From Mycoplasmopsis synoviae ATCC 25204 (lineage in GTDB: Bacteria > Bacillota_I > Bacilli_A > Mycoplasmatales > Metamycoplasmataceae): 64,000 bases of DNA. Shown here in pieces: positions 13,952 through 64,000 of this stretch; positions within the stretch are counted from its first letter, which is position 1; every line of letters starts with the position of its first letter. Location of the stretch: the NCBI RefSeq assembly GCF_000969765.1, contig NZ_CP011096.1, forward strand, positions 186,001 through 250,000, read 5' to 3'. A program made the position numbers and the translations under genes. The notes below the pieces were generated by a model, which had not been told where the DNA came from, ran no database searches, and was given only the letters and a program-made list of their open reading frames with translations.

Positions 13952-13985
13952 TTTTTTTTATTTTTTCTTAAAAAAGAAAATAAAA

Positions 13986-14090
13986 AAAAGCAGCTCCCGA
14001 TTTTTGCTTTTCAGCTATCTTAGGCGCTAAAGGGCTTAACTACTGAGTTCGGAATGGTATCAGGTGCAAACCTTCGCTATGGCTACTATT
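13986..14090 (-). rRNA. rrf: 5S rRNA, stand-alone
   Basis: On the minus strand the conserved 5S core is visible (CACCTGATACCATTCCGAAC, then TCAGTAGTTAAG). The ends pair as helix I: 5' AGTAGC with 3' GCTGCT. No 16S or 23S gene is nearby, so the 5S copy is unlinked. A minus-strand TAAAAT about 10 nt upstream of the 5' end may be its -10 box; it lies just outside the IS island and has survived the insertion. End positions are good to a few bases. Confidence 0.85.
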
Positions 14091-14129: not shown

Positions 14130-14204
14130 TTTTTTGTTTTTTATTTTTAAATTCAAGATTGGAAAAATAGTAGCGCCAAAGCGATATTTAGCAGTATTAA
14201 AACC
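14130..14204. repeat. 75-bp direct repeat, left copy
   Basis: Identical to 25157-25231 except for one base. It touches the left end of the IS deletion derivative at 14204. The sequence is the 3' tail and stop region of the chromate-transport gene whose intact copy ends in the right repeat. This is the pattern expected of a long target-site duplication, a known trait of IS1634. Confidence 0.9.
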
Positions 14205-14464
14205 CTGCGTTTCTAAGTTGTAATGAAGAAAAAAACGAATACACCTATAAATAAGGCGTATTCGTTTTTTGTGCTTTTAAATTACAATGATAGACCATCA
14301 ACCGCATATTGAAAATCACTATATATTTTGTTTAATTCCTTATGTTCTGGGTCTAAATTATTCTTGATTTCATTTACAACTTTACCATTGACAGTCTTTG
14401 TTGTGATTGTTATAAGTAATAAGGTAAAAGGTATAAAAAAGAGCTTTCAACTTGGAAATGCAGG
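14204..14464. mobile_element. 261-bp internally deleted IS1634-type element (MITE-like)
   Basis: The left 213 or so bases match the transposase-3' end of the IS copy at 18139 (terminal repeat, hairpin, last codons of the transposase). They then jump directly to the last 45 or so bases of the opposite end (aataaggtaaaaggtataaa, then the terminal repeat). About 1.6 kb of transposase is missing and both terminal repeats remain, so it could be moved by a transposase acting in trans. Confidence 0.85.
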
Positions 14465-14487
14465 GTACGTAAATATCGTAATAAAGT

Positions 14488-14520
14488 TAAATAGAAATAA
14501 CAAGGGTTTCCTTGCTATTT
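14488..14520 (-). terminator. Terminator after the type IIG R-M gene
   Basis: On the minus strand, a stem ATAGCAAGG / CCTTGTTAT with one mismatch around a short loop, flanked by A-T-rich sequence 20-50 nt after the R-M stop. Confidence 0.55.
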
Positions 14521-14538
14521 TTGATAATTTCATTTTAA

Positions 14539-16764
14539 TTAAATTTTATTATTAATATAATCTTCCATAAATTTTCAGTCCGGCTCTCACTCGTTTTTAT
14601 TATTTAGTTTTGCTGGCAATAAAATATTAATTTTACTTAATCTCTCACTACTCATAGAGTATGTGTAATCGAATAAATCGTGTAATTTAGACATAACAGT
14701 TGTTATAAAAAGATTAATAGAAGGGTTTAGATTACTGTTACTTAAAACACTAACCGAACTTGTTGCAGCAAAATCGTAACTATGTGCTTTTGCTATTCCA
14801 CTTGCTCCATCGCCTTGATTAACAAGTGTAAAGCAATTTTTGTTAAAGATTTTTTTACATTCTTTGATATAGTAACCAATCCCATTATAATTTTTAGAAG
14901 CAATAACAAGAGGTATTTTTCCATCTTTATTATCGGGGTTGTTTTCATCAGACTTATCTTTACCATTTTCTATATTAAATAATTCTATAATCTTAAATTC
15001 TTTTCAATTATTAAAATCCAATTTAGCATCAGAAACTTGAATTGTTGATAAGTCTATAATTCCATTATTTTCAATTATTAAATTATTGATATCTTGAGTT
15101 AGTAGAACAAAATCAAGCTTTTGTCTCACAAAATCAAGCTTTTGTCTCACAAAATCAAGCTTTGATATAGTGGTATAATCAATAGCTTCATACTTAGGCC
15201 AATCTTCTTCTGCCTTTAGATTTACAATTTCTCATTTTTCTTGATTAAATATTTTTTTAGCTAAATCTACGTGATGCTCAGTTCTTCCTATATTTCGGCT
15301 TTCAATATAGCCATCATCTAAGAAATTTTTTCTTTTTGTAGCTTGACTATATTTTGTATGAGCTTGAATTGTTATTATAGCAGTTTGAACAGATGCATTT
15401 GGATGGAAAAGCTTTTTAGGTAATCTAATAACTTGTAATAAATTATGGTTTTCCAAAATTAGCCTCTTGTATTTTAAGTTTTCTGGTACAGTGCTTTTAG
15501 TTTTTTTTGCGCTCAAAATACAGCTAATAGGAACAATTGCTGATACTATACCACCAACTTCCATATTTTGCAATGTTTCATATATGAATTTTAATTCATT
15601 ATCTTTTTGTGAAAAAGGTGGGTTCATTAACGCACGATTATATACATCCTTTAATTCCGGCAATTTGTTGAAACAGTTATCTTTAAAAATGTGAGAACTC
15701 CCATCTCCATGCAGCATCATATTTATATCAGAAAGTGTAGCATTAAACATATCACTTTCAACACCATATAGACCTTCTTGCAATACTGCTTTTTTTAAAT
15801 TATTTTTACTTTCGTCATTTATGTTTAGACCTTCTATTTCCTTCAACATATTAAACATAGAAATTACTAAGAACGTACCAGAACCACAAGTTGGATCAAG
15901 AATTTTGCTTTCATAAGAACAATCTGCTAACTTATACATCAATTCCGCGATATGGTCTGGTGTAAAAACCTCCCCTTTTTCTTTAGCGTTTGCGGAATTT
16001 CATTTTCTAAATACTTTTAGAAAGCCATTCATTGTATCATGACCTATTTGGTCTTCTACATTAATAAAGTTATAAATAGATGAAATATCACTAATTAAAG
16101 AAATTAGGTGGTTATAATCAATTTCATTTAAGCTTTGCTCACTTAAAATTATTTTTATTTGTTCTTTCTTAAGTTTTTTATTTTTAGGGGTATCTTCTAT
16201 ATATTTATTGATAGCGTTCTTGATATTTAGCAAAATATCTTTTGAATTATTACTACTTATTTCTTCTTCAAAATTTTTACAATATTTTAAGCATAACATT
16301 ACTGCGCCAATAAAAGGTACATTATTTTGTCTGCTTACTCTTGCGTTTCTAAAATCATTTGCTAACTTCTTTGCAAAAGTATTTATTTTTTCTGGTAGGG
16401 TAATTCTTGCATTAGGAAAGTATTTTGATATATATTCCTTTGCTGTTTTTATTTTTGTCTCTTCTTTGACCAGTTTGCCTTGAACATAGCATTCAAAATT
16501 TTTACCATTATATTTAAATCCTATGAAATTAGGATTCTTCTCTAATTTCATATAATCTTCTAGCTGTCCTTCAAATTCCTTGCCCTCAGCTTTTGCATCT
16601 AAAATAAATGTTACACCATCTAAATAGTAATAGCCATCGGGTTTCAAGGACATAGAATGATTTTTATTAGGTTTTTTATATATAAACAATGTCCCATCTG
16701 TTTTGTTTTTTAGCTCCAATTTATTAGTGAATTCATTCACTATTTCGAATTCAGTTTTGTACAT
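14539..16764 (-). CDS. Type IIG restriction-modification enzyme (nuclease, N6-adenine methyltransferase and specificity domain in one chain)
   Basis: A 741-residue protein. The N-terminal part has a PD-(D/E)xK-like nuclease signature: LKPDGYYYLDGVTFILDAKAE near residues 37-58. The methyltransferase core carries motif I LDPTCGSGTFLV (about 284-295) and motif IV NPPF (about 360). The C-terminal quarter looks like a type I HsdS-style target-recognition domain (WKEFKIIELFNIENGK, then IPLVIASKNYNGIGYYI). A linker of three repeats of KLDFVRQ joins the two. The frame is open if TGA codes for Trp, so it is probably intact. It follows the ribbon-helix-helix gene by 14 nt with AAGGAG before the ATG. 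The recognition site cannot be read from sequence. Confidence 0.82.
15108..15165 (-). repeat. 21-bp tandem repeat encoding KLDFVRQ units
   Basis: Two full 21-bp units and a partial third, encoding KLDFVRQ-KLDFVRQ-KLDFV between the methyltransferase and the target-recognition domain. The unit length is a multiple of three, so gain or loss of a unit would change the linker but keep the frame. Confidence 0.9.
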
Positions 16765-16778
16765 AAATATTAAACTCC

Positions 16779-16976
16779 TTATATTTTGTATTCTTTAATT
16801 AGTAATTCAATTACTTGTGAGCGGTTCATTATATTGCCTTTTTGTGTTTTGATAAATTCAAGTTTATCAATTGCTTGTTGGCTTAATGTTATTGAAATAG
16901 CTTTTTTTAAGCTATTATTGTTGTTTGCTTTAGTTTTTTCTACGCTATAACTAGAAACTCTTTCTTTTAAATTCAT
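16779..16976 (-). CDS. Ribbon-helix-helix DNA-binding protein
   Basis: A 65-residue protein. Residues 25-65 fit a CopG/Arc-type fold: strand AISITL, helix SQQAIDKLEFIKTQK, then NRSQVIELLIKEY. The N-terminus is Asn- and Lys-rich and probably disordered. A strong ribosome binding site (AAGGGGGGG) precedes the ATG and contains a run of seven Gs. It is directly upstream of the type IIG gene and could repress that operon. Because a ParA-like remnant lies just upstream, it may instead descend from a plasmid or ICE partition partner. Confidence 0.75.
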   Translation of the reverse strand: MNLKERVSSYSVEKTKANNNNSLKKAISITLSQQAIDKLEFIKTQKGNIMNRSQVIELLIKEYKI

Positions 16977-16984
16977 TCCCCCCC

Positions 16985-17150
16985 TTATTTGATAATCATA
17001 ACTGTTGAGTATTGGTATAAAAACATATTTAGATAATATACCTAGCAGGATAAAAAGAATAATAAAACCTAGATAAGTAGATAATGTTGTTTTTAAAACA
17101 CCACCTTTGTTGTTTAAATAAGTAAGTACTTTTGTTTTTATTTTTTCTTC
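16985..17150 (-). pseudogene. ParA-like partition ATPase, N-terminal remnant
   Basis: Translated on the minus strand, the frame reads KTKVLTYLNNKGGVLKTT and then LSTYLG, strongly like the ParA/Soj N-terminus with its deviant Walker A (KGGxxKTT). A hydrophobic stretch (FIILFILLGILSKYVFIPIL) follows directly, where ParA would continue with switch motifs, so the middle and C-terminus are gone. No ATG precedes it and a TAG lies just upstream. The frame runs in phase into the ribbon-helix-helix gene. I read it as the leftover of a parA-RHH pair from a plasmid or integrative element. Confidence 0.5.
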
Positions 17151-17413
17151 TTTCTATATATATATATATATTATATCACAATATAAAATATTATAAAATA
17201 ATATATTTAATATAAGAATACTCTATTTTTAAGCCTTAAAAATAAATTCACAACATAATATAAAATAATATTTTATAATATAAACAACACTTGGCCAAAT
17301 AGAGAACTATGTTACAATATTGATGTAATCATTTAGATTATAGTTAATCGAATAAAAAAACTGCATCACGGTAAGTGGTTTGATGCAGCGCTTATCTTTC
17401 CTTAAAAAATAAG
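17151..17413. other. AT-rich stretch upstream of the ParA/RHH/R-M genes
   Basis: Extremely AT-rich, with a (TA)n run at about 17155-17172 and many ataatataaaat words, giving several candidate -10 boxes on both strands. A hairpin CTGCATCA / TGATGCAG lies at about 17362-17388. No coding frame of note. Confidence 0.5.
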
Positions 17414-17605
17414 ATGAAAAGTCAAATTATTTCTTATAACTTTTTTGAAAGTTCAATGAAGAAAAAACTCTTACTTGCTTTTGATATCACGCGTTGAAAT
17501 AAAATTAAAACTAATTACGAAAGTTATAAAAACAGACTATTTGAATTTTTAGTTTTTAATATGATAGAAACACTTTCATTTATTCATCTGTTTTCCAAAC
17601 CTTAG
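17414..17605 (+). CDS. Small hypothetical ORF ending at a solo IS end
   Basis: A 63-residue frame starting MKSQIISYNFFESSMKKK. It contains one TGA-coded Trp and stops just as the IS terminal sequence begins at 17604. It is not recognised and may be the N-terminal stub of a gene cut by an IS event. No convincing ribosome binding site. Confidence 0.3.
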
Positions 17606-17626
17606 CTTCCAACTTGGAAACTCAGG
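17604..17626. repeat. Solo IS1634-type terminal repeat
   Basis: Matches the last 23 bases of the transposase-5' end of the IS copies at 20003 and 25156 (agcttccaacttggaaactc, then agg). No other IS sequence adjoins it, so it is the scar of an excised or deleted copy. Confidence 0.6.
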
Positions 17627-17734
17627 AAATTACTCATGAGCGTTATATTTATGATACTTATATATCTCAAACAATAAAAACAATTAGCAAAAAACGTATG
17701 AATTTTGAAATAGAAAAATTATTAAAATCAAGTA

Positions 17735-17762
17735 GTAATTTCTGCTTGGTTTTTTTATTTTC
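17735..17762 (+). terminator. Terminator-like hairpin
   Basis: A stem AATCAAG-TAG / CTG-CTTGGTT followed by seven Ts. The gene it once served is not recognisable. Confidence 0.5.
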
Positions 17763-17847
17763 CCAGTTTGAAATGCTCCAAAATTCCGTTTTTGTTTTGT
17801 TCGTATTATCATAAAAATATAATGATTTTATTTTTATAAGGGGGGAA

Positions 17848-18138
17848 ATGAATACAGCATTTGAATTTTTCATTAAAGATTTAAATAAAATCGAAGAATA
17901 ATTTAGAACTATAAAAAGAAAACAAGAGCGCCCAAATTGGAACTTGCATAAAGTAAAAAAAAGAGTAATTATTGATACACAGGGAGATAAACATTATTAC
18001 AATTTAGGAGTTTATTATATTAGAGAAATTAAAAATGGTAAAGAAAAAAGAATTTATTTTACTCATTATTACCACGATTATTTAAAGCAAGTAAGAAGAA
18101 ATAAATACTCAATTGAAACAAAAACCTTTGCTATATTT
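17848..18138 (+). pseudogene. 5' fragment of an unknown gene, possibly an ISLre2/UPF0236-like transposase
   Basis: A frame with a strong ribosome binding site (aagggggg) starts MNTAFEFFIKDLNKIEE and then meets a TAA at about residue 18. It continues in the same frame as FRTIKRKQERPNWNLHKVKK, then HYYNLGVYYIREIKNGKEKR, until the IS copy at 18139 cuts it. The basic region followed by paired Tyr residues recalls the start of ISLre2 transposases, but this is a weak guess. Broken twice: a nonsense codon and the IS insertion. Confidence 0.45.
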
Positions 18139-20003
18139 CCTGCGTTTCCAAGTTGTAATGAAGAAAAAAAACGAATACGCCTTATTTATAGGTGTATTCG
18201 TTTTTTGCGCTTTTAAATTACAATGATAGACCATCAACGGCATATTGAAAATCACTATATATTTTGTTTAATTCCTTATATTCTGAGTCTAAATTATTCT
18301 TGATTTCACTTACAACCTTAACATTGACAGTCTTTGTTGTGATTGTTATAAGTTTCAATGTATCTATAAACATATTCATTGTCAGTTTTTGGATCTCTGC
18401 ATTATCTTTATAAAATTTCTTTAATTTATAAATGCAATATTTCAAAACAATTAGAGACAAAAAGCATAAAAATACATGAGATTGAATATGCTCGTCTTTA
18501 TAAACGTATATCGGTCTAACTTCGATTGCTGATTTTAAGCTTCTAAAACTTTCTTCCACTTTTCATTGTCTATTATATATTTCATTGGCTTTTTTTGAAT
18601 TTAAATTTGTTATGTTCGTTTCAATTATATAAAAGCCATTTTCATTAGCCACTTTTTTAATTTTTTCAATATTTAATCTTGCTACTGTTTTACCATCTAC
18701 ATCCATATACTTTTTCTTATATTCAGAAGCCAAAGCACTTAATGGCAATTCACCTTTAATAGACTTTTTTTTCAATTTATTAATAAGATTTTGTCTTTTT
18801 ATTTTGTCTAAAGTTTGTTTTGAAGGGCTAAAATAGACAAATTGTTTTCTAAATGTATCGCTATATCTTTTTTTATTTTTGTTTTTAGCTCAAATAGATT
18901 CGCCGAATCTAGATTTAGTAAAATACTCATTTTCTTGAACAAAGCCTTGTTTATTTACTATAAATGCTTTATCTTCTTTTCCAAGAATATCAATATGTTT
19001 CTGAAGTATATATTTATATCCTTTTTGCTTCAAATATCTTAAATTTGCATTTTGACTAATAGTTTTATCAGCAACAATTATTGTGTCTTTTATTCTGTAA
19101 ATTCTTTGCATTTCGATTAAAAATTTCACAAGAGTTTTAGAATCTGCAGTATTTTCTTTTAAAACTTTATAGTGAAAAGCAATGCCACTATTATCAACTG
19201 CCATAGCCACAACAATTTGATCTTCATCATGCTTTCCATCTTAGAAAAACCTCTTTGTTTCAAAGCATCTCTTGAAAAACTTTGAAAATAAATAGTTGTA
19301 TTATCAAAATGCATTAATTTTGCGTTTCTAGTTGTCAATTCTTGCATTTTGTTATAAATATTGACTAAAATTGCATTTTTATATTCTAAAAAAGTATCGA
19401 AATAGTTATAAATTGAAGATTTTTTTATATCTATCTTATGTAAAAAGTCATTTTTGTTTTTGTATTGACAAATATAACTTCTTGGTTGAATTATTCTTGT
19501 TGCAACAATAAATTCCAATACTTCTTCTAAAGATTTGTGTTTAGTTTTCGGTAATCCTTTAAATAAATCTAGTTCTTTAATTACTTTATAAATCAATTCA
19601 ATACCAACGTTTTTTATATTTGTTTCGACAGATGTCGGGTTAAGTAATTGAAAAAATTTGATTTTAACTTCAATTTTATTTTCTCCAACAGGAACCAATC
19701 TAGCAATTTGTTTTAAATCATCGATGTTTTGTAGAGAATATTTTTCTTTAATTTCTTCTCAATAACCTAATCCAACTAAATTACCAATCCCTTTACCGTA
19801 TCCTTTTGATATTCCTAATGCAATGTAAATTTGTTTTGGGTTTTTTCTTTTATACAGAATGTAGTTACTCATATTTATATTATACATTATTATCATTGTA
19901 ATCATTGTAAAAAATTAAAATAATTAAAAAATGTACTTATATACTATGTATATAAATAATAAGGTAAAAGGTATAAAAAAGAGCTTCCAACTTGGAAACT
20001 CGG
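18139..20003 (-). mobile_element. IS1634-type element, inner copy
   Basis: A 1,865-bp element with terminal repeats CCTGCGTTTCCAAGTTG at 18139 and, in reverse complement, a CCGAGTTTCCAAGTTGG-type end at 20003. A terminator hairpin lies inside the 3' end at about 18164-18203. The flanks show no evident direct repeat, unlike the outer pair of ends. It is nearly identical to the copy at 23293. It interrupts the gene fragment starting at 17848. Confidence 0.92.
18218..19872 (-). pseudogene. IS1634-type transposase, frameshifted
   Basis: A 551-residue DDE transposase in restored form, starting MSNYILYKRKNPKQIYIALG. It contains HFDNTTIYFQ (first Asp region), IIVADKTI (second Asp region) and YNRQWKVEESFRSLKSAIEV (Y-R-E-K signature). 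Compared with the copy at 23370, one T is missing near 19243, in the SKDGKHDEDQ stretch. The frame breaks there and the two halves lie in different frames. Programmed frameshifting is possible, but the sister copy has the unshifted sequence there, so a simple deletion is more likely. Confidence 0.88.
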
Positions 20004-20397
20004 GTTATTATTCTAATTTTTTCTCTTAGTTAAACAATTATTTTTACACAACTGAATTCATAAAAATAAATTTTACTTTCTGTTAAAATAATGAATCAAT
20101 TATTAAAGTATTTATTCCATGTTTAATATTGTCAGAATTATTTTCTTTGATAATAATTTATTTCACATCGTCCACTATTATTATGATAAAAAATATCATT
20201 TTAGTACGATTATTTAACTCTTAATCAATCTATATTATTCAACAATATTTTCTATTTTCTTAGGAAAAATCCCCAAAACTTTAAAATATGTACTTTCTAG
20301 AATAAGATTTATCCTTAAAAATAGGTATAAGTATAAAAAACATTATTCAAATACAACTTTAAATTTGATTCATTAAATAACGTTATAAATTAAATCG
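20004..20397. other. Non-coding AT-rich stretch between IS and DpnII-type gene
   Basis: No frame on either strand looks like a gene. There are short inverted repeats and many A/T runs. It is the region downstream of the endonuclease gene; no clear terminator is visible. Confidence 0.4.
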
Positions 20398-21255
20398 TTA
20401 GTCATTTAAAACTGCACAATTACCAGTTTCTAAATCATTTAAATTATAAATGGTGTCTAATACATCAAAGGTATCTTCTAAATTATGTTTAGCTGAATTT
20501 CAACCAACTCCATCAGTAAACCAAACAAAGGTGAAATTGGATATTTCTTTTGCTTCTAAAGCTAGATTTTTATAGCTTCTAGCAGTTTCATTAAGTTTAG
20601 AACCGCCACTATTATAAAAATTACATTCACAAGCAAATACTTTTTCAGCTTTAATAAAAACAAAATCAAAACGTTTTTCTGTTTTACCATTATTACTTAT
20701 TTTTGAAAGATCAATGCCAAAAATTTTTTCGATATCACTTTTACACATTTCTTTTCAATAGGTTTTATTTTTTATAAAGCCGGATTTAACCAGATAAGAT
20801 TCTATGATATTTTCCATAACATCACCTGTTCTATTCTTCCTTGCGTTAGTATCCATTCCAACTTCAACGCCCATTACATAATCAAAAAGATTATTAATTA
20901 GATGCTTCGAGATAAGATCAAAAAGACCTGTATTTTCCATAAAATCAGCGTATTCCTCAGCTGAATAATTGGCATTAATAAAATTAAATATTTTTGTGCT
21001 TTCAATATCAGTAACTTTAATTTCACATTCTCTTTTAGCAATTAAAATTGGAATTGCTTTTAGTACTTCAGGGTATTGTTTCAACAACGTCAAAAAATCA
21101 TTTCTAATAGAAGATGAACCAATTAGACTATTCAAAATGTTTAGTTCTATTTTTATAGAATCAGTATTAGTATAAACTTTTTTAAAATCAGTGTAATAAT
21201 CATAGGTTGCTATGCTATCTCTCATCGTTGACAATCATTCATTAAAATTTCTCAT
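20398..21255 (-). CDS. DpnII/MboI-type restriction endonuclease (GATC)
   Basis: A 285-residue protein, about the family length (DpnII is near 290). The C-terminal half carries the family signature: KRFDFVFIKAEKVFACECNF followed by YNSGGSKLNETARSYK, where the Asp and Glu form the PD-(D/E)xK-like active site. It ends with FTFVWFTDGVGW. The chosen start (MRNFNEWLSTMRDS) uses two TGA-coded Trp residues between 20750 and 21240, so the gene is intact. It is expected to cut unmethylated GATC. The methyltransferase encoded 720 nt upstream on the same strand protects the host. Confidence 0.88.
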
Positions 21256-21976
21256 TTTTTATCACTTTTTCATCGAATCGAAATATTTTTGTTTTGATAT
21301 TTCCAAATAATTAACATTATAATCAATTCAAATATAATTTTTCCAACATCTTAGCATTAAATGGATATAAAATTTAAACTACATTTATTTGTAGACAATT
21401 TTTAGACAATAGTTTAGAGTTGAATATTTTTTTGTATTTTTTCATTTTTTAATAGGAAACAAAATTTAAACTGCTTTTATTTCTTTGTAGTTGTTTTCAT
21501 CTTTCATTAATTGATAATTAAGAGTATGCCTGTTTTTTGTTAGAAGTTATTTGTTTTTAGACTAAAAAATCGTTTCGGAAATTAAACTAATAAAACATTT
21601 ATGCGCTAAATTTGATACAATATTTGATCTAATTCAAATAATATTGTTTATTATTGAAAAAACTTTTAGTTTTAGGAAAACTCCGATACAATAAATATTA
21701 TGAAAGACACCGCTAATCTAAATGTAACGTCATCTTTTAAAATTTCTTTGCAAGTCTCTATTCACTTTCTATTTAATTTTTGTTTTATCATGAATTGCTA
21801 AAATTTTATCTAAGTCTGTTTTATTAACTGATACTTATTTCCAGAGTAAAATGGGATTTTGATAAAAAATATGTTGGGTAAGCAAAATCATATCAACACT
21901 TTTTAAATTATTTTAATAGTTTAAATGATTCGCTATTATAAAGAACAAAAGTATTATTTATAGATAAAAATAAGAT
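21256..21976. other. 720-bp gap within the GATC restriction-modification system
   Basis: Holds no frame longer than about 35 codons that looks real. There are poly-T tracts and a few candidate -10 boxes on both strands. In related systems these two genes are close together, so this spacer may be the remains of a deleted gene such as a second methyltransferase. That is inference. Confidence 0.4.
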
Positions 21977-23014
21977 TTATTCATAATTAGTAATAATAAC
22001 CTCCTCTACGTTTCCTCTTTCATCTGCTTTTGAATTAATCATTCTTTTTGCATTTACAATATGAATTTTAAATTTCGAATATAACTCATTAATAAACGCA
22101 GTGTTATGATTACTTAGCATAACCTTAACACCTCTACTATCTAGTTCTTTATAAATGTTTGCAAGTCTTTTTTGTTCATTCTTTCCAAAATTATTTTTTG
22201 AATATGAAGTAAATGTTTTTTTATTTTCTATTGTGTCATAAGGAGGATCGAAATATACAAAGTCACCTTTTCTGGCTTTCTTAACTGCTTCAGTAAAATC
22301 GTCATTTAAAATAGTAATATCATTGTTTGTAAAATATTTTTTCAATGATTTAAAATTATCTTTGTCAAAGACTGTTACTTTTGTTTTTTTTCCTGAAGGA
22401 ACATTAAATAAACCTTTTGAATTAACTCTATATAAACCATTAAAACAAGCTTTATTTAGATATATCATTCTGGCAGCACGAACATAAATTGGTAGATTTA
22501 AAAAATTAGTTTCTCTATCTTTTGAACGAATTTGATAATAATATTCTTCTGAATGATTTTTTTCATGTTTAATTAATTCATTTATCAATTTATTATATAA
22601 TTTTTCATTTTGAAAACACTTATATGCACAGATTAATTCACTATTAAAATCATTTATAACAGATTTTGTTGGAGCCAAACTTAAGAAAAAAGAGCCACCG
22701 CCAACAAATGGTTCATAATAATTGTTAAATTTTCTAGGCATTAATGAATACAACTTATCTAAAAGTTGAGTTTTTCCGCCTGCCCATTTAACAAAAGGGC
22801 GGAGTGTCGTTTTATTATCTAAAAGTTTCGATGACTTAACACCTAATGCAATAGATATTCTTTCGATAGTTTCTAGAGTCACATTAATTTTGCCCTGTTC
22901 AATTTTTGAAATTTGTGGTCTATCAATTCCGCTTAAGATTGAAAGTTTATCTTGAGACATTCCTTTTTGAATTCTTAATTGTTTAATCTTTTTACCAAAT
23001 ATTTCTTTAAGCAT
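21977..23014 (-). CDS. DNA adenine methyltransferase (Dam/DpnM type) with N-terminal HTH
   Basis: A 345-residue fusion. Residues 1-66 form an XRE-type helix-turn-helix (KIKQLRIQKGMSQDKLSILS, then GIDRPQISKIEQGKINVTLE). Residues 73-345 form a D12-class N6-adenine methyltransferase: motif I FVKWAGGKTQLLDKL, motif IV DPPYDTI near residue 255, and a C-terminal LSNHN. It should methylate adenine in GATC and shield DNA from the DpnII-type enzyme. The HTH suggests it also binds its own promoter and sets the order of expression of the two genes. There are no internal stops, and AAGGT precedes the ATG. A short frame of 31 codons on the plus strand (from 23048) is probably chance. Confidence 0.9.
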   Translation of the reverse strand: MLKEIFGKKIKQLRIQKGMSQDKLSILSGIDRPQISKIEQGKINVTLETIERISIALGVKSSKLLDNKTTLRPFVKWAGGKTQLLDKLYSLMPRKFNNYYEPFVGGGSFFLSLAPTKSVINDFNSELICAYKCFQNEKLYNKLINELIKHEKNHSEEYYYQIRSKDRETNFLNLPIYVRAARMIYLNKACFNGLYRVNSKGLFNVPSGKKTKVTVFDKDNFKSLKKYFTNNDITILNDDFTEAVKKARKGDFVYFDPPYDTIENKKTFTSYSKNNFGKNEQKRLANIYKELDSRGVKVMLSNHNTAFINELYSKFKIHIVNAKRMINSKADERGNVEEVIITNYE

Positions 23015-23213
23015 AAAATTACCTTTACCAAATTATATAATAAAAGTATGTTAAATTACACATTATTACTAGAAATAGAATTAAAAGCTATGTCTTTAGA
23101 TAAAAAAGTTTTTTACGAAAAATCGACAACTAAAACTTCATAGGTTAATAATATAATGCTAATATAATTTGCTGAATATATAAAATAACTACTAATTTTT
23201 GCCAATTCCAGCA

Positions 23214-23253
23214 TAAAAAAAGGTTTGAATAGCCTTTATAAGCATATCAAACC
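23214..23253 (-). terminator. Terminator downstream of a tRNA remnant
   Basis: On the minus strand, a stem GGTTTGA / TCAAACC followed by seven Ts, placed 12 nt after the CCA end of the tRNA fragment. This is the normal position for a tRNA terminator. Confidence 0.6.
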
Positions 23254-23264
23254 ATTGTTTTATA

Positions 23265-23292
23265 TGGTGTCAAATACGAGAATCAAACTCGT
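23265..23292 (-). pseudogene. tRNA 3' fragment (T arm, acceptor strand and CCA)
   Basis: On the minus strand it reads ACGAG-TTTGATT-CTCGT, a 5-bp T stem with a 7-nt loop, followed by ATTTGACA and CCA. The rest of the tRNA is missing because the IS terminal repeat starts at the next base (23293). The following terminator supports a former tRNA gene. The loop deviates from the usual TTC start, so it is degenerate or atypical; the amino acid cannot be told. Confidence 0.5.
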
Positions 23293-25156
23293 CCTGCGTT
23301 TCCAAGTTGCAATGAAGAAAAAACGAATACGCCTTATTTATAGGTGTATTCGTTTTTTGCGCTTTTAAATTACAATGATAGACCATTAACCGCATATTGA
23401 AAATCACTATATATTTTGTTTAATTGCTTATGTTCTGGGTCTAAATTATTCTTGATTTCACTTACAATTTTACCATTGACAGTCTTTGTTGTGATTGTTA
23501 TAAGTTTCAATGCATCTATAAACATATTCATTGTCAGTTTTTGGATCTCTTCATTATCTTTATAAAACTTCTTTAATTTATAAATGCAATATTTCAAAAC
23601 AATTAGAGACAAAAAGCATAAAAATACATGAGATTGAATATGCTCGTCTTTATAAACGTATATCGGTCTAACTTCGATTGCTGATTTTAAGCTTCTAAAA
23701 CTTTCTTCCACTTTTCATTGTCTATTATATATTTCATTGGCTTTTTTTGAATTTAAATTTGTTATGTTCGTTTCAATCATATAAAAGCCATCTTCATTAG
23801 CCACTTTTTTAATTTTTTCAATATTTAATCTTGCTACTGTTTTACCATCTACATTAATATACTTTTTCTTATATTCAGAAGCCAAAGCACTTAATGGCAA
23901 TTCACCTTTAATAGACTTTTTTTCAATTTATTAATAAGATTTTGTCTTTTTATTTTGTCTAAAGTTTGTTTTGAAGGGCTAAAATAGACAAATTGTTTTC
24001 TAAATGTATCGCTATCTCTTTTTTTATTTTTGTTTTTAGCTCAAATAGATTAAACGAATCTAGATTTAGTAAAATACTCATTTTCTTGAACAAAGCCTTG
24101 TTTATTTACTATAAATGCTTTATCTTCTTTTCCAAGAATATCAATACGTTTCTGAAGTATATATTTATATCCTTTTTGTTGTAAATATCTTAAATTCGCA
24201 TTTTGACTAATAGTTTTATCAGCAACAATTATTATGTCTTTTGTTTTGTAAATTCTTTGCATTTCGATTAAAAATTTCACAAGAGTTTTAGAATCTACAG
24301 TATTTCCTTTTAAAACTTTATAGTGAAAAGCAATGCCATTATTATCAACTGCCATAGCCACAACAATTTGATCTTCATCATGCTTTCCATCTTTAGAAAA
24401 ACCTCTTTATTTCAAAGCATCTCTTGAAAAACTTTGAAAATAAATAGTTGTATTATCAAAATGCATTAATTTTGCGTTTCTAGTTGTCAATTCTTGCATT
24501 TTGTTATAAATATTGACTAAAATTGCATTTTTATATTCTAAAAAAGTATCGAAATAGTTATAAATTGAAGATTTTTTTATATCTATCTTATGTAAAAAGT
24601 CATTTTTGTTTTTGTATTGACAAATATAACTTCTTGGTTGAATTATTCTTGTTGCAACAATAAATTCCAATACTTCTTCTAAAGATTTGTGTTTAGTTTT
24701 CGGTAATCCTTTAAATAAATCTAGTTCTTTAATTACTTTATAAATCAATTCAATACCAACGTTTTTTATATTTGTTTCGACAGATGTCGGGTTAAGTAAT
24801 TGAAAAAATTTGATTTTAACTTCAATTTTATTTTCTCCAACAGGAACCAATCTAGCAATTTGTTTTAAATCATCGATGTTTTGTAGAGAATATTTTTCTT
24901 TAATTTCTTCTCAATAACCTAATCCAACTAAATTACCAATCCCTTTACCGTATCCTTTTGATATTCCTAATGCAATGTAAATTTGTTTTGGGTTTTTTCT
25001 TTTATACAGAATGTAGTTACTCATATTTATATTATACATTATTATCATTGTAATCATTGTAAAAAATTAAAATAATTAAAAAATGTACTTATATACTATG
25101 TATATAAATAATAAGGTAAAAGGTATAAAAAAGAGCTTCCAACTTGGAAACTCAGG
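23293..25156 (-). mobile_element. IS1634-type element, right outer copy
   Basis: A 1,864-bp element with terminal repeats CCTGCGTTTCCAAGTTG (left) and CCTGAGTTTCCAAGTTG (right, in reverse complement). The right end abuts the 75-bp direct repeat whose partner touches the left end of the deleted element at 14204. Together they define the outer ends of the island. Confidence 0.92.
23370..25024 (-). pseudogene. IS1634-type transposase with two stops and one frameshift
   Basis: The same protein as at 18218 but broken differently. CAA has become TAA after SFSRDALK (near 24406). A second TAA follows KSRF (near 24049), where the other copy reads GES. One T is missing from a T8 run near 23920, in the KKKSIKGELPLSAL region. 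None of these lesions is shared with the other copy, so both decayed after duplication. It cannot give an active transposase. Confidence 0.88.
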
Positions 25157-25231
25157 TTTTTTGTTTTTTATTTTTAAATTCAAGGTTGGAAAAATAGTAG
25201 CGCCAAAGCGATATTTAGCAGTATTAAAACC
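25157..25231. repeat. 75-bp direct repeat, right copy
   Basis: Pairs with 14130-14204 (one mismatch). It includes the last codons and the TAA of the chromate-transport gene that ends at 25174. The right copy therefore still belongs to the functional gene, and the left copy is the duplicated target. Confidence 0.9.
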
Positions 25232-25836
25232 AGCAAATGAATCTTAGTTTTTTTAAGCATAATAATTGAAAAGCTTATAGAAACCGGCACAAACGCAAAA
25301 AGTACATATCTCCTTCATCCGCTAAAAAATATGGCATTTGTTTTGCCAAAATCTATTTTAAAATAAGAACTTATAGACGAATTAAATGTTACAAATGGAA
25401 ATGTAATTGAAATAAAAAGTTGAATTGCTAGAGAAAATATAATTCCAGCAATAACTGGTTTTAAAATTATAAAAATTCTTTGAATGGTTTTACTACTTTC
25501 AAATTTTTTTAGATTTTTCATCACAAAAACCAAAACCATAATTGCACATAATGCAAAAACAACGTAGGTTAATATCGCAGCTAGATATCCATATCAATAA
25601 CCATTTGAAATTAAATATCCACTAAAGAATGCAAATTTAGTAGATACTAGCCCTGGAGTTAAATTACTAATCGATATTACTTCATTGATGGTATCGTTTG
25701 AAATATTTGCATTAAATGTTTTTTCTAAAAACATCCAAAATCAACGAAACAGCGGAATAAAAACTTGTCCTGATCCAAATACAGATAGTGATATTACGCA
25801 CATCATAAGCAAAGTAAAAAATAAAATTAAAATCAT
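25174..25836 (-). CDS. Chromate-transporter family protein, second half
   Basis: A 220-residue integral membrane protein with about six helices, starting MILILFFTLLMMCVISLSVF. SNLTPGLVSTKFAFFSGYLI carries the family's Pro-Gly motif in an early loop. It pairs with the gene before it as a two-gene (short-chain) CHR transporter, each gene giving one half of the usual 400-residue protein. Its ATG overlaps the upstream stop (TAATG). Its last 20 or so codons lie in the 75-bp repeat at the island edge, and the gene survived the insertion. The substrate is unknown; chromate is only the family name. Confidence 0.85.
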
Positions 25837-26474
25837 TATTTTTTACCGCCTTTATTTTTATTTAAAGCTTTCTTTTGCTTTAAATAAACTATGAGCTGAT
25901 AAAGAAGAGTTCCTGAAATTACTATTGATATGTTAAGTATTGAAACGTTAATCGGAGCTGGAACAAATAGTGAAAATAAACTAGAAAATATAAATAAAAA
26001 TATTCAAAGCGGAAGCTTTAGAGTTTTATGTGATGTTTTTAAAAAGCTAATTGTAAAGTTAATTAAAATCGCGATAACTACGCAAATAATTGCTAGTGCA
26101 AAAATGTATAAATATTTTTTAGGAATGTATCTAGAAAATACGAAAAGTAGTAGCGCAAAAAATAAATGTGGCAGTACTGAAATTAAAGTAAGTATGCTTC
26201 CTTTAAGCGGCCCAAATCATTTAATGCATAAAAATGATATCGCTTGAATTACGCTAGCGCCTGGAATCATATTGGTTACTATTATTACTTTTTCAAATTC
26301 TTTTTTAGAAGCTCAATTATTTTTAATAATGGCTTCTTTTTCAATTATTGGCATTAGGGCGTTTCCGCCTCCAAAACCAATAAAAGTTATTTTTAAAACA
26401 AATAAAAAAGCTTGTCAAAAACTAGGCTTTGACAAAGGCTTATTTTGTTTATTATTATCAATATCGCTATTCAT
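25836..26474 (-). CDS. Chromate-transporter family protein, first half
   Basis: A 212-residue membrane protein. WQAFLFVLKITFIGFGGGNA (about residues 20-39) contains the FGGG motif of CHR transporters, followed by LMPIIEKE. NMIPGASVIQ repeats the Pro-Gly loop seen in the partner. About five to six helices and a Lys-rich C-terminus. It shares TAATG overlaps with tkt upstream and the second CHR gene downstream, so all three are translationally coupled. Confidence 0.87.
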
Positions 26475-57125: not shown

Positions 57126-57164
57126 ACATTTTAGGGCGTGTTTTTGGTTTTATTATTATAAACT

Positions 57165-58127
57165 TTAAGTTGTTGTTTGTGGGCTTGTATTTGAAGCTGA
57201 TGAATCTTGAGTAGGAGTCGAAGCTGAAGTAGCAGTAAATACTGTTAGAGGCTTAACAAATTTAGTTAATGGAATTCTAATTAAGAAAGTATTTAATCAT
57301 CTATTGTTTGCAACTCCAATAACTGGTAAATATACTGCCTCGCTGTCATCTTTCATTTGTTGCACAAATACAGCATTAGGATTATTAAGGTTTGCGATTT
57401 TTAATGCTTTATTTTCTACTCTAGCTCAAGTAACACCATTTTTTTGATCACTTACTGGATTAGCTGGATACTTAGGATCAAAGGTATTTACATATTTTTG
57501 AATTGCTTGGAAAAATAGTGATGCAGTTCTTTGGTCGCTTGTAACTAAGTCTTTGAATTTAGTGTTAAGGTCATCTGTTACATTTGATGTTCCGTTTGTA
57601 GTTGTATTATCAACTTTTCCAACCTCAGGCAAGGTAGCGTCTAAAACAATCGCTGGTCCTGTATAGTTTAGGTAAACGTTAACATCTTTAATGGTTTTAG
57701 CATGGTCAGCTGTATTTGCGCCACTTGGCGCTGCTGAAGATGAAGCTCCTTGAATTGGGAATAAAATTTCATTTGTATTATTTGAATTGTAAACTACTCT
57801 AATTTTTAGTGCAATAGTATTTGTAGAATTTTTTGCTTTTTCATAGCCTTCTTTAGCGGCAAGGTTGAAAGTAACGGTTGGAACTCCTCAGGTTTGACGG
57901 TTTCATGTAAATGTTTCTAAAGTAACATTAGGTTGTGATAAAACAACGTTTTTAAATTTCTCACTTCCTAGTTTTTTAACAAGTTGATCTTCTAGATTGC
58001 TTCAATTTGCTTTAGTATTAAATCATGTTTGAAGTTTTGATTTATTATCATTTACATTTGTTCAACGTGAATCAAAACCTTCAAGCACTATTTTAGGCAT
58101 AAACCCGTCTCAGTATAGCGCTAACAT
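57165..58127 (-). pseudogene. vlhA haemagglutinin cassette A (promoterless, open frame)
   Basis: A 320-residue open frame starting MLALYWDGFMPKIVLEGFDS. It has the mature C-terminal region of VlhA (YTGPAIVLDATLPEVG, KYVNTFDPKYPANPV, WLNTFLIRIPLTKFVKPLTV) but no signal peptide, lipobox or promoter. The flanking motif ACATTTTAGGGC/GCATGTTTTT recurs at other cassettes. No stops or frameshifts were found, so it could serve as a recombination donor for an expressed vlhA elsewhere. Not expected to be expressed alone. Confidence 0.8.
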
Positions 58128-58145
58128 TTTGGGGCATGTTTTTGG

Positions 58146-60174
<2,029 letters not shown>

Positions 60175-61667
60175 CTAATTAGTTAATTTAAATTGGTTTA
60201 TGTAATTTAGGTAAACGTTAACATTTTTAATAGCGGTTGCTGGATTTTCTACACTTGCAGTACTTGGCGCTGCAACAGGAGAAGCTCCTTGAATAGTAAG
60301 TAGGTTTTGTGTTGAGGATTCACTTGGTATAAAACTCTTATTTTTAACTCTAAGGTAGTTGATGTTCCAGCTCCACTTGCTAATTGGTAACCAGGTTTTG
60401 CCTCTACTGTGAAGGTAACTTTTGGATTTTTTCAAGTATATTTACCAACAGTTACTTTTTCATAGCTAACTGTTGGGGCAGTTAAAACTACATTTTTAAA
60501 TTTATCAGCTCCCAATTTCTTAGTAAGCTGGTCTTCTAGTCCTGCTCAGTTAGCTGAGTTGGTAAATCAAGCTTCTAGTTTTTTTTGATTTGTTTTATTT
60601 GCTTCTTCGTGAGCTGCTTCATTATCACCGGTAGTATCTGCTACGTAACCATCTACAACTATTTTAGGCATAAACCCGTCTCAGTATAGTGTACGAGTAG
60701 TATCAGCTTTATAGTAAGCTGTTTTATTTTCGGTTGTATCACCATTTAACTTATCGGTTTCAGCTTTTAAAGTGTCATTTAATGATTTTAAGTAAGAAAC
60801 TGTTGATGCTAAATCAGCTGTTGGAGCTGTTTGAGCTTCTGATGATTCTGAATCTTCTGCTGCTTCTTCTGTTCCTGTTGCAAGTCTAACTGTAGCTGAT
60901 GCTGCGGCTGATGTTCCGCCTCCACTTCCATCTCCGCTTTCACTTTCTGTTGGTGTTGGAGTAGCTGCTTGAGCTGGAGCCATTACAAAGTTTTGTAGTT
61001 TGAATTCTGATTTGTCTCTAGCTTTGGTTCAAGCTCTAGGGTTTGGAAGTTGACCTTCAGGAGTTTCTACAATAATTGATTGAGCTGTTCATTGGAATGC
61101 TGGAAACACTGATGAAGCTTTTAGTAAAGCTGCATCGAAATCTGCTTTGTTATCTGCATCGAAATCTGCTTTGTTATCTGCATCGTAGTATTTTTGTGGA
61201 TAATCCACTTGCATTTTTAGACCATCTGATACTAAAGTTTGAAGAGATTCTAATGATTCTTTTAATGATTTTAATTCTGAATCTAATTTATCAGCTTTAC
61301 TTTGATCATTTTTAGGTAAATCATTTGCTTGTTTTCGAAGCTCAGCAAGAAGCGCTTCATTTACAAGAGGTCCTAATTCTGAAGCTGTTTTAACAGCGCT
61401 AGCTTTAGTTTTAGCAAAAGTAAGCTCTGGCATAAGTGCGCTAACTGCTGCATCTAGAGCTGTTTTTGCAGATTTTAGATCACTTTGAGTAGTTGCTAAA
61501 GTTCCATCAGCATTTAGATTTGCAAGTTTTGAATCTTCTGTTAGAAAACCAGCTGCTGCTGTTAATTTTGCTTCTAAAGTAGTTTTAAGAGTATCTGTTA
61601 CTTTTGAGTATTCAGCATCTTCTTTAACTGCTTTAGCTTTAGTAACCGATCCGCTTATAAACTGCAA
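60175..61667 (-). pseudogene. vlhA cassette C (frameshifted)
   Basis: Starts with an in-frame TTG (LQFISGSVTKAKAV). It contains the coiled-coil half with a perfect 24-bp duplication giving DADNKADF twice. Then follow TPEGQLPNPRAW, the SESGDGSGGGTSAAASAT linker and TLYWDGFMPKIVVDGYV. A frameshift near 60300-60330 joins it to NLLTIQGASPVAAPS and VNVYLNYI, where it ends at TAA, short of the C-terminal third. The cut after VYLNY also occurs in cassette D. Confidence 0.78.
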
Positions 61668-61712
61668 AAAAATTAAGTTAAAAATAAAACTAAATTTATT
61701 TTTTAAACTTAA

Positions 61713-62223
61713 TTAAATGTCGGTGTAGTTTAAATACACATTAACTTTTTTAATTGTGGTTGCATTATCACTAGGAGTTGCAGTATGATAAGCTCCCTGA
61801 GTTGCAAATACATTTGTATCTGAATTAGCTTCTTTGTATAGATTTCTAATAGTTAGTGTAACTTTTTCAGAAGAATCACTTGCTTTTTCATAGCCTTCTT
61901 TAGGAGTAAGGTAAAAGTTACTTTTGGTGTTAAATAACGTCTATTAGAAAATTCAACTTCATCTCAAGTAATTCTAGGATTTGATAAAGTCATATTCTTG
62001 AATTTTTCTTCACCTAATTTTTTTGTTAGCTGCTCTGCTACAAGGCTTAATTTATCTTGGTTTTGATTAAATCATGTAGTTAATATTAATGCGTTTCTTG
62101 TTTTTCAAAATTCAATCCGCTAGTTGAAAATTCATTATATTCTCTATTCATTGGCGCAACAGTAGTAGGTAGAGCTGTAGTTACAATTTTAGGCATAAAC
62201 CCGTCTCAGTATAGCGCTAACAT
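61713..62223 (-). pseudogene. vlhA cassette D (short, several frameshifts)
   Basis: Begins MLALYWDGFMPKIVTTALPT, shifts frame near 62100 (after NFEKQE) and again near 61910 (in the KVTF region). It ends VYLNYTDI before a TAA at 61713. The following 45 bp are A/T-rich and join cassette C, as at the C/B junction. It is damaged but keeps blocks usable for recombination. Confidence 0.75.
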
Positions 62224-62246
62224 TTTGGGGCATGTTTTTGGTTTTA

Positions 62247-63217
62247 TTATTGGCTTTGTCCTGTTGTTTGTGCTGGTTGTGAAGTTTCAGTTTGTCCGCC
62301 TTGAGATTGAGCTGAAGCTGCTGGTGCTCTAAATGGTGTAATAGGTCTTACGAATTTAGTTAATGGAATTCTAATTAGGAAGGTGTTTAATCATCTATCA
62401 TTTGTAACTGCAGTAACTGCAAAATACACTGCTTCTTTATCACCTTTTATTTGTTGTAAGAATATCTTTTTATTGTATAGTAAATCGTTTAAATTTCCTA
62501 TTCTAAGTTCTTTTTCGCTTTTATAGCAACTCCGTTTTTTTCTGTTACAAGTTGAGCTCTAAATTTAGGGTCAAATTTATTAACATAGTTTATAACTGTG
62601 CTAAGAAATTCTCTTGGCATTAGATTATTGATTAATAGTTCTTTGAATTTATCGTTAATTGAAGTTCCGTTAATTGAAGTATTATCTTGAGATCCTACTG
62701 TAGGATGGGCTTCATCTAAAACAATGCTTGGCCCGGTGTAGTTCATATAAACGTTTACGTCTCTAATTACTGCGGCATTATTAGATGGCGTTGAACCAGC
62801 TGGCGCTGCTGAAGATGAAGCTCCTTGCATTTGTAAAACGTTTGCATTAGGTGATTGAGTTGTATATAAAACTCTTATAACCATTGTAAGACTTTGTGAA
62901 AATTCACTTCCGCTTTGCAATTCATAACCTTTTTTTTGGGTTACATCAAAGGTAACTTTAGGTATATATTGGTTGCTATTTACTATGTCTCAATCTACTT
63001 GTGGATTGGTTAGTTTAACGTTTTTAAATTTATCAGCACCTAGTTTTTTGGTTAACTGCTCTGAAAGTTTTTCTCAATTAGCAGGAGTATCAAATCAAGT
63101 TCTTAGTTTTTCTATATTTGCAGCTTAGTGTTCTGCTCTATTGTTTCCGGCAGTATCTGCTACGTAACCTTCAACTACAATTTTAGGCATAAACCCGTCT
63201 CAAAATTTAATTAACAT
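62247..63217 (-). pseudogene. vlhA cassette E (stop and frameshift)
   Basis: Begins MLIKFWDGFMPKIVVEGYVA and has a TAA near 63124 (RAEH-stop-AANIEK). It then carries the block shared with cassette B, a frameshift near 62515 (after NGVAI), and finishes WLNTFLIRIPLTKFVRPITP to a Gln/Ser/Thr-rich end. No promoter or signal peptide. Confidence 0.78.
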
Positions 63218-63252
63218 TTTAGGGCATGTTTTTGGTTTTATTATTATAAACT

Positions 63253-64000
63253 TTAAGTTGTTGTTTGTGGGTTTGTATTTGAAGCTGATGAATCTTGAGT
63301 AGGAGCCGAAGCTGGAGGAGCAGTAAATACTGTTAAAGGCTTAACAAATTTTGTTAATGGAATTCTAATTAAGAAGGTATTTAATCATCCATTGCTTGCT
63401 ATTGCAGAAACTGCAAAGTATACTGCTTCAGTATCACCTTTTATTTGTTGCAAGAATACGTTGTTACCGTTTAAATCGTCTAAAGTTCCTGGTCTAAGCT
63501 CTCTTGTGTTTTGAACTTTAGTTATAGTAACTCCGTTTATTGAATTTGTTACAAATTCAGCTCTATATTTTGGATCGAATTTATTAACATAGTTAATTAC
63601 AGATTGCAATAAAGGATTTGCATATCTATTAGTAAATAGCAGTCCACTAGTTGGATTTCCTCTAAATGCATTGTTAAATGCACCATCTACATTTGATGTT
63701 CCATTTAGTGAAGTATTTTCTTGAGATCCTACTTTAGGAAGCTCTGCATTTAACTCAATATTTGGCCCGGTGTAGTTTAGGTAAACGTTAACATCTTTAA
63801 TAGTTTGAGCATGGTTTGCACTATTTGCACCATTTGGCGTTGCTGAAGGTGATGACCCTTGAGTTTGAAACACATTTACTTCAGGATTTGAATCTTTGTA
63901 TAAAACTCTTATAGTAAGAGTTACGCTAGTAACTGAATCTTGTGCTAAAGCATATCCTTCCTTAGCTGCTAGATTGAAAGTAACTTTTGGGGTTAAATAA
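63253..64000 (-). pseudogene. vlhA cassette F (continues past window)
   Basis: An open frame from the window end to the stop at 63253: FNLAAKEGYALAQDSVTSVT, YTGPNIELNAELPKVG, WMNTFLIRIPLTKFVKPLTV, ending NTNPQTTT. The last 130 bp and the spacer after it are almost identical to the end of cassette A. The 5' end is outside the window, so expressed gene versus donor cassette cannot be decided. Confidence 0.7.

Follow-up and report, generated by a model that had tools for sequence, protein, structure and literature searches.

The insertion sequence (IS) IS1634, from Mycoplasma mycoides, belongs to the IS1634 family, formerly included in IS4. Cargo enclosed by IS copies and flanked on the outside by a target duplication is likewise the arrangement of Tn9/Tn10-type composite transposons and of the translocatable units and pseudo-compound transposons of IS26. 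IS26-type units also enter beside an existing IS; they belong to the IS6 family and are moved by their own transposase-driven reaction. The target duplications of IS1634 and IS1549 range from 8 to 514 bp, and the 2008 review of the IS4 group states that a mechanistic model for this variability had yet to be put forward (PMC2266710). In M. mycoides subsp. mycoides SC PG1, 13-kb and 8-kb repeats are flanked by or contain IS1634, and the 13-kb repeat differs from strain to strain and from passage to passage (PMC1798306). M. felis has variable regions and inversions flanked by transposases, the IS1634 family among them, and a DpnII-family enzyme found in one of its isolates is absent from others (PMC11004492).

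The 11-kb island described here is of this already known kind. The repeats of M. mycoides SC are likewise IS1634-bounded or IS1634-containing segments, present in more than one copy and variable between strains (PMC1798306); they adjoin each other, whereas here an IS-bounded module lies at two distant loci, carries a restriction-modification (R-M) system and has breakpoints mapped inside the IS copies. This precise mapping of breakpoints within IS copies is what is new. The window, that is, the whole stretch of DNA analysed (64,000 nt), comprises positions 186001-250000 of a single-contig, Mycoplasmopsis-type genome of 846,495 bp that uses genetic code 4, and it was compared with one genome per species. 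Coordinates refer to the window unless marked as genome coordinates. The island and its neighbours comprise the following features.

13985-14090, minus strand: 5S rRNA gene, left neighbour of the island
14130-14203: left copy of the 74-bp target duplication, a detached copy of the chr 3' end
14204-14464, minus strand: IS1rem, deletion remnant of an IS1634-family element
14539-16764, minus strand: type IIG-like restriction-methylation protein, 741 aa (N6_Mtase)
17604-17626, minus strand: isolated IS right-end fragment (AGCTTCCAACTTGGAAACTCAGG)
17719-18138, plus strand: decayed 5' end (98 codons) of an Mbov_0401-family ICE transposase-like gene, cut by IS2
18139-20004, minus strand: IS2, IS1634-family, 1866 bp, frameshifted transposase, mosaic
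about 19421-23777: tract identical to the second DpnII locus, with breakpoints within IS2 and IS3
20398-21255, minus strand: DpnII-family restriction endonuclease, 285 aa
21977-23014, minus strand: Dam-family adenine methyltransferase with N-terminal HTH, 345 aa
23265-23292, minus strand: 28-nt tRNA-like 3' end with terminal CCA
23293-25156, minus strand: IS3, IS1634-family, 1864 bp, frameshifted transposase
25157-25230: right copy of the 74-bp target duplication, the native chr 3' end
25174-25836, minus strand: chromate-transporter half gene with the duplicated 3' end

IS1rem, IS2 and IS3 share one orientation, and the right neighbour of the island is a pair of chromate-transporter (chr) half genes (25174-26474). 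An earlier note on this DNA had placed two R-M systems between the IS copies, and the type IIG-like protein and the DpnII endonuclease/Dam-family methyltransferase pair correspond to these. The same note had called the elements IS1634-type, which agrees with the profile match of the transposase of this IS: the one copy found intact in the genome (genome 81255-83122, 562 aa) scores 305.9 bits against the NCBIfam IS1634 model NF033559 (cut-off 100). The IS is 1864-1867 bp long and ends in the terminal inverted repeats CCTGCGTTTCCAAGTTG and CAACTTGGAAACTCAGG, as is usual in the family (1.5-2 kb, ends starting with C). With IS1634 of M. mycoides it shares the transposase family, a size of about 1.87 kb, the ends and the long variable duplications, but it is a distinct member of the family; copies 92-95% identical to it occur in several Mycoplasmopsis genomes, M. 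gallopavonis among them. The transposase genes of IS2 and IS3, and of the copies ISA, ISB and ISC elsewhere in the genome, are frameshifted. In IS1rem (261 bp), the left 214 bp of the element meet about 55 bp from its right end at a TATAAGT microhomology. Indels common to several copies, such as a missing T near position 627 in both IS3 and ISA, show that the transposase defects were passed down and did not arise as random errors of sequencing. Smaller pieces of the element, comprising short end fragments and terminal parts that bear hairpins, are scattered at genome 561505-561833, 579762-579820, 11502, 26113 and 396284, and a 41-bp hairpin near the left end of the IS occurs in both orientations among the copies.

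Direct reading of 14130-14204 against 25157-25231 gives 74 identities in 75 positions. Comparison with other IS copies fixed the IS ends (CCTGCG...CTCAGG), so that the left remnant begins at 14204 and the right IS stops at 25156. The 75th base, a C in both, is the first base of the IS and matches by chance, and the 75-bp direct repeat reported as touching the outer IS ends is borne out once trimmed to 74 bp (14130-14203 and 25157-25230, one mismatch), flush with those ends. A dispersed repeat, which the earlier note had named as grounds for abandoning its reading, is ruled out, as the whole 846-kb genome holds two copies only. The duplication spans the last 57 nt of the chr gene (stop at 25174, minus strand) and 17 nt downstream, and the gene therefore stays intact; the repeat had been described as the 3' tail of the chromate-transport gene, and insertion of an IS there is supported. 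When the left and right flanks of all full IS copies of the genome, and of copies from sister species, were paired in all combinations, IS1rem and IS3 were the only pair of different copies joined by a duplication. Twelve single copies, from this genome and from sister species, have perfect or near-perfect duplications of their own, of about 19, 37, 49, 50, 63, 107, 109, 119, 162, 176, 275 and 767 bp. A length of 74 bp is thus ordinary for this element, the long and variable duplications expected of IS1634 are present, and the 74-bp repeat qualifies as a real target duplication rather than a chance match. No target duplication was found within 3 kb of IS2, IS3, ISA, ISB or ISC taken alone. The neighbourhood of 5S and chr in sister species was considered as an empty site and set aside, the other genomes having no such arrangement of the two. 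The 767-bp direct duplication, at a single IS1634-family copy in a sister species (G028:C1:611114-612982, L133), has one mismatch, is flush with the IS ends and exceeds the range quoted for IS1634 and IS1549 (PMC2266710). The measured lengths add long target duplications for an element family that had no model of the duplication mechanism at the time of that review (PMC2266710).

With two copies of one IS at its ends (IS1rem and IS3) and a single target duplication outside them, the island resembles a composite transposon. On such a reading the block 14204-25156 was built elsewhere and inserted in one step at the chr 3' end, making the 74-bp duplication, which indeed abuts the outer IS ends precisely, is absent elsewhere and falls within the single-copy range. 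However, growth inside a single IS predicts the outer duplication equally well, a second 11-kb copy is absent from the genome, and the left IS is a 261-bp remnant. Nor is there a functional transposase in a flanking IS; IS2 and IS3 are frameshifted and IS1 is deleted, the one intact copy lying far outside the island.

The right-hand module IS-DpnII-IS (18139-25156) recurs in full at genome 585022-592041. The two loci were aligned segment by segment, with ISA paired with IS2 and ISB with IS3. The cargo (3,288 bp) shows 0 differences, while the flanking IS copies are 1.5-2.3% different: IS2 and ISA differ at 43 sites, all within the first 1283 columns, and IS3 and ISB at 28, all after column 484. 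The DpnII module is therefore present at two loci, the same inside and diverged in the outer IS parts, and the identical tract must end inside the IS copies. That all 71 differences should fall within the outer 2,664 bp has a probability of about 1e-30 if mutation is assumed equal along the unit, and of about 4e-11 if IS sequence alone is counted. Divergence of the outer parts is about that of unrelated copies (59 differences between ISC and ISD). According to the table of variable sites, IS2 is of its own type to about 1119 and of ISA/IS3 type from about 1121, ISB is of IS3 type up to about 487 and ISC-like beyond, and ISA is of IS3 type from about 72 onward; lineages defined by indels group IS3 with ISA, and the right part of ISB with ISC. 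On the evidence of these alignments, the mosaics are footprints of homologous recombination or gene conversion.

Transposition would copy the IS ends along with the unit, and an identical tract that ends inside the IS is thus the pattern of recombination or conversion rather than of block transposition. Two copies of a composite transposon would match throughout, IS ends included, and each would have its own target duplication; the two 7-kb units do not match in this way, and the second locus has no target duplication within 3 kb across the whole unit. As far as sequence can tell, this shows that the DpnII module was swapped by recombination between IS copies and was not moved as a block with its IS ends. 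With breakpoints inside IS copies that have diverged, the exchange here points to homologous recombination by the host, in contrast to the movement of IS26 units. The simplest reading in the earlier note, insertion of the whole 11-kb block as a unit, fares poorly against a module that exists twice with cargo 100% identical and diverged outer IS parts; one-step transposition is possible but unlikely, and is no longer the simplest reading. An ancient transposition of the 7-kb IS-DpnII-IS unit between the loci, after which gene conversion made the cargo uniform or overwrote the outer IS parts, could draw on the evidently frequent conversion between IS copies here, but it would need a transposition, conversion of both outer IS parts and loss of the duplication at the second locus, and is quite improbable. 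There is only a very slight chance that the second DpnII locus was copied by the assembler: an identical tract of 4.4 kb is presumably long enough to cause difficulties in assembly and polishing, but the outer IS parts and the unique flanks differ between the loci, and the assembly is a single contig, 99.8% complete.

Further signs of import lie at IS junctions. Left of ISA (genome 584649-585021, L052) lie the last 52 codons of a foreign tsf gene and downstream DNA, together 93-98% identical to the sister genome G052; the tsf 3' end is 98% identical to the tsf end of that genome and stops exactly at the IS. A duplicate of the native tsf was rejected as its source, the native gene at genome 493907 being far diverged. 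This segment appears to be a recent interspecies transfer with the IS as its junction. Left of IS2, the 5' end of the ICE gene is 84% identical to an intact Mbov_0401-type copy in G028 and is cut exactly at the IS, and the remaining half is absent from the genome. The 28-nt tRNA-like 3' end at the cargo edge beside IS3 occurs, within the genome, only in the two cargo copies, with no native tRNA matching it at up to 3 mismatches. Against plasmids, only the IS was matched in the left half of the island, in M. gallopavonis, and phage or viral-contig collections yielded at most weak, partial matches to the DpnII cargo.

The island probably goes back to a single IS1634 insertion at the chr 3' end, whose IS later acted as the docking site where IS-bounded modules came in. 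As the sequence shows, an IS1634-family element entered the 3' end of the gene and duplicated its 74-bp target, leaving the gene intact. The resident IS, or a small IS-flanked unit there, would then have grown into the island of 11 kb, since directly oriented IS copies serve as homology arms. Homologous recombination or gene conversion would have passed modules from one IS copy to another, possibly by way of a circle of one IS and cargo. We infer this circle, the route by which the IIG module arrived and the order of events, in which the IIG module and the ICE remnant would have come first and DpnII later. A second option in the earlier note, a single IS with the rest added by recombination, is upheld for the DpnII half, where the identical cargo and diverged outer IS parts fit it; the IIG half could have come by either route. 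The foreign tsf end at ISA counts in favour of the docking-site account, as it would be another IS junction bounding imported DNA. Counting against it, IS1rem and IS3 share a target duplication, as the ends of a true composite transposon would, and integration of a simple circle predicts the resident IS's own duplication at the second locus, where there is none. An earlier rearrangement must therefore be assumed at that locus and, as IS3 in its right part hardly differs from ISA, a conversion tract as well. Homogenisation of the 4.4-kb identical repeat by the assembler may also have made the loci alike.

In a variant of the docking-site account, the left half does owe its presence to a composite transposition: a 5.8-kb composite (IS1, IIG, IS2) entered the chr 3' end, and DpnII came later by recombination in the right-hand IS. 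Both the outer duplication and the mosaic IS2 with its identical DpnII tract would be explained, but the IIG block is present once only, IS1 is a remnant and recombination alone gives the same pattern. Such a course is conceivable though doubtful, and its likelihood overlaps with that of the account from which it derives.

An outer target duplication is often read as proof of a composite transposon; here an internal control in the same genome, the second copy of half the island, indicates that the module moved by recombination inside IS copies. The locus also illustrates in detail that R-M systems, the controllers of DNA uptake, can themselves be shuffled in mycoplasmas. More tentatively, IS1634-family elements with long, gene-sparing duplications might act in Mycoplasmopsis as distributed docking sites for recombination, between which IS-bounded R-M modules and foreign chromosome segments are swapped across loci and species without transposition of the module.

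The R-M genes of the right half are those of a DpnII-type pair, a DpnII endonuclease (PF04556, E 5e-101) with a GATC adenine methyltransferase (TIGR00571 dam, 289 bits), GATC specificity being predicted from family. Described DpnII (GATC) type II systems likewise combine a DpnII-family endonuclease with a Dam-family methyltransferase, but the methyltransferase of the island carries an N-terminal HTH domain. This domain resembles R-M control proteins and suggests self-regulation. No second, DpnA-like methyltransferase gene was found between the endonuclease and methyltransferase genes. Protein identity of the DpnII enzyme with uncultured Bacilli (GTDB genomes) reaches 83%, which suggests a horizontal origin. 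In the type IIG-like protein, a IIG profile covers residues 218-543 and a specificity profile 665-738; the profile search matched no nuclease domain, and an N-terminal nuclease is only presumed. A perfect 21-bp in-frame tandem repeat of 2.7 copies (15107-15163, LDFVRQK) lies in the linker between the methylase and specificity parts; gain or loss of copies would leave the frame unchanged and could alter target spacing. Across the window GATC occurs 156 times (172 expected), with no clear avoidance despite the two identical DpnII systems, and GTAC is strongly under-represented (40 of 97 expected). Elsewhere in the window, 57139-63305 holds dense internal repeats of up to about 200 bp.
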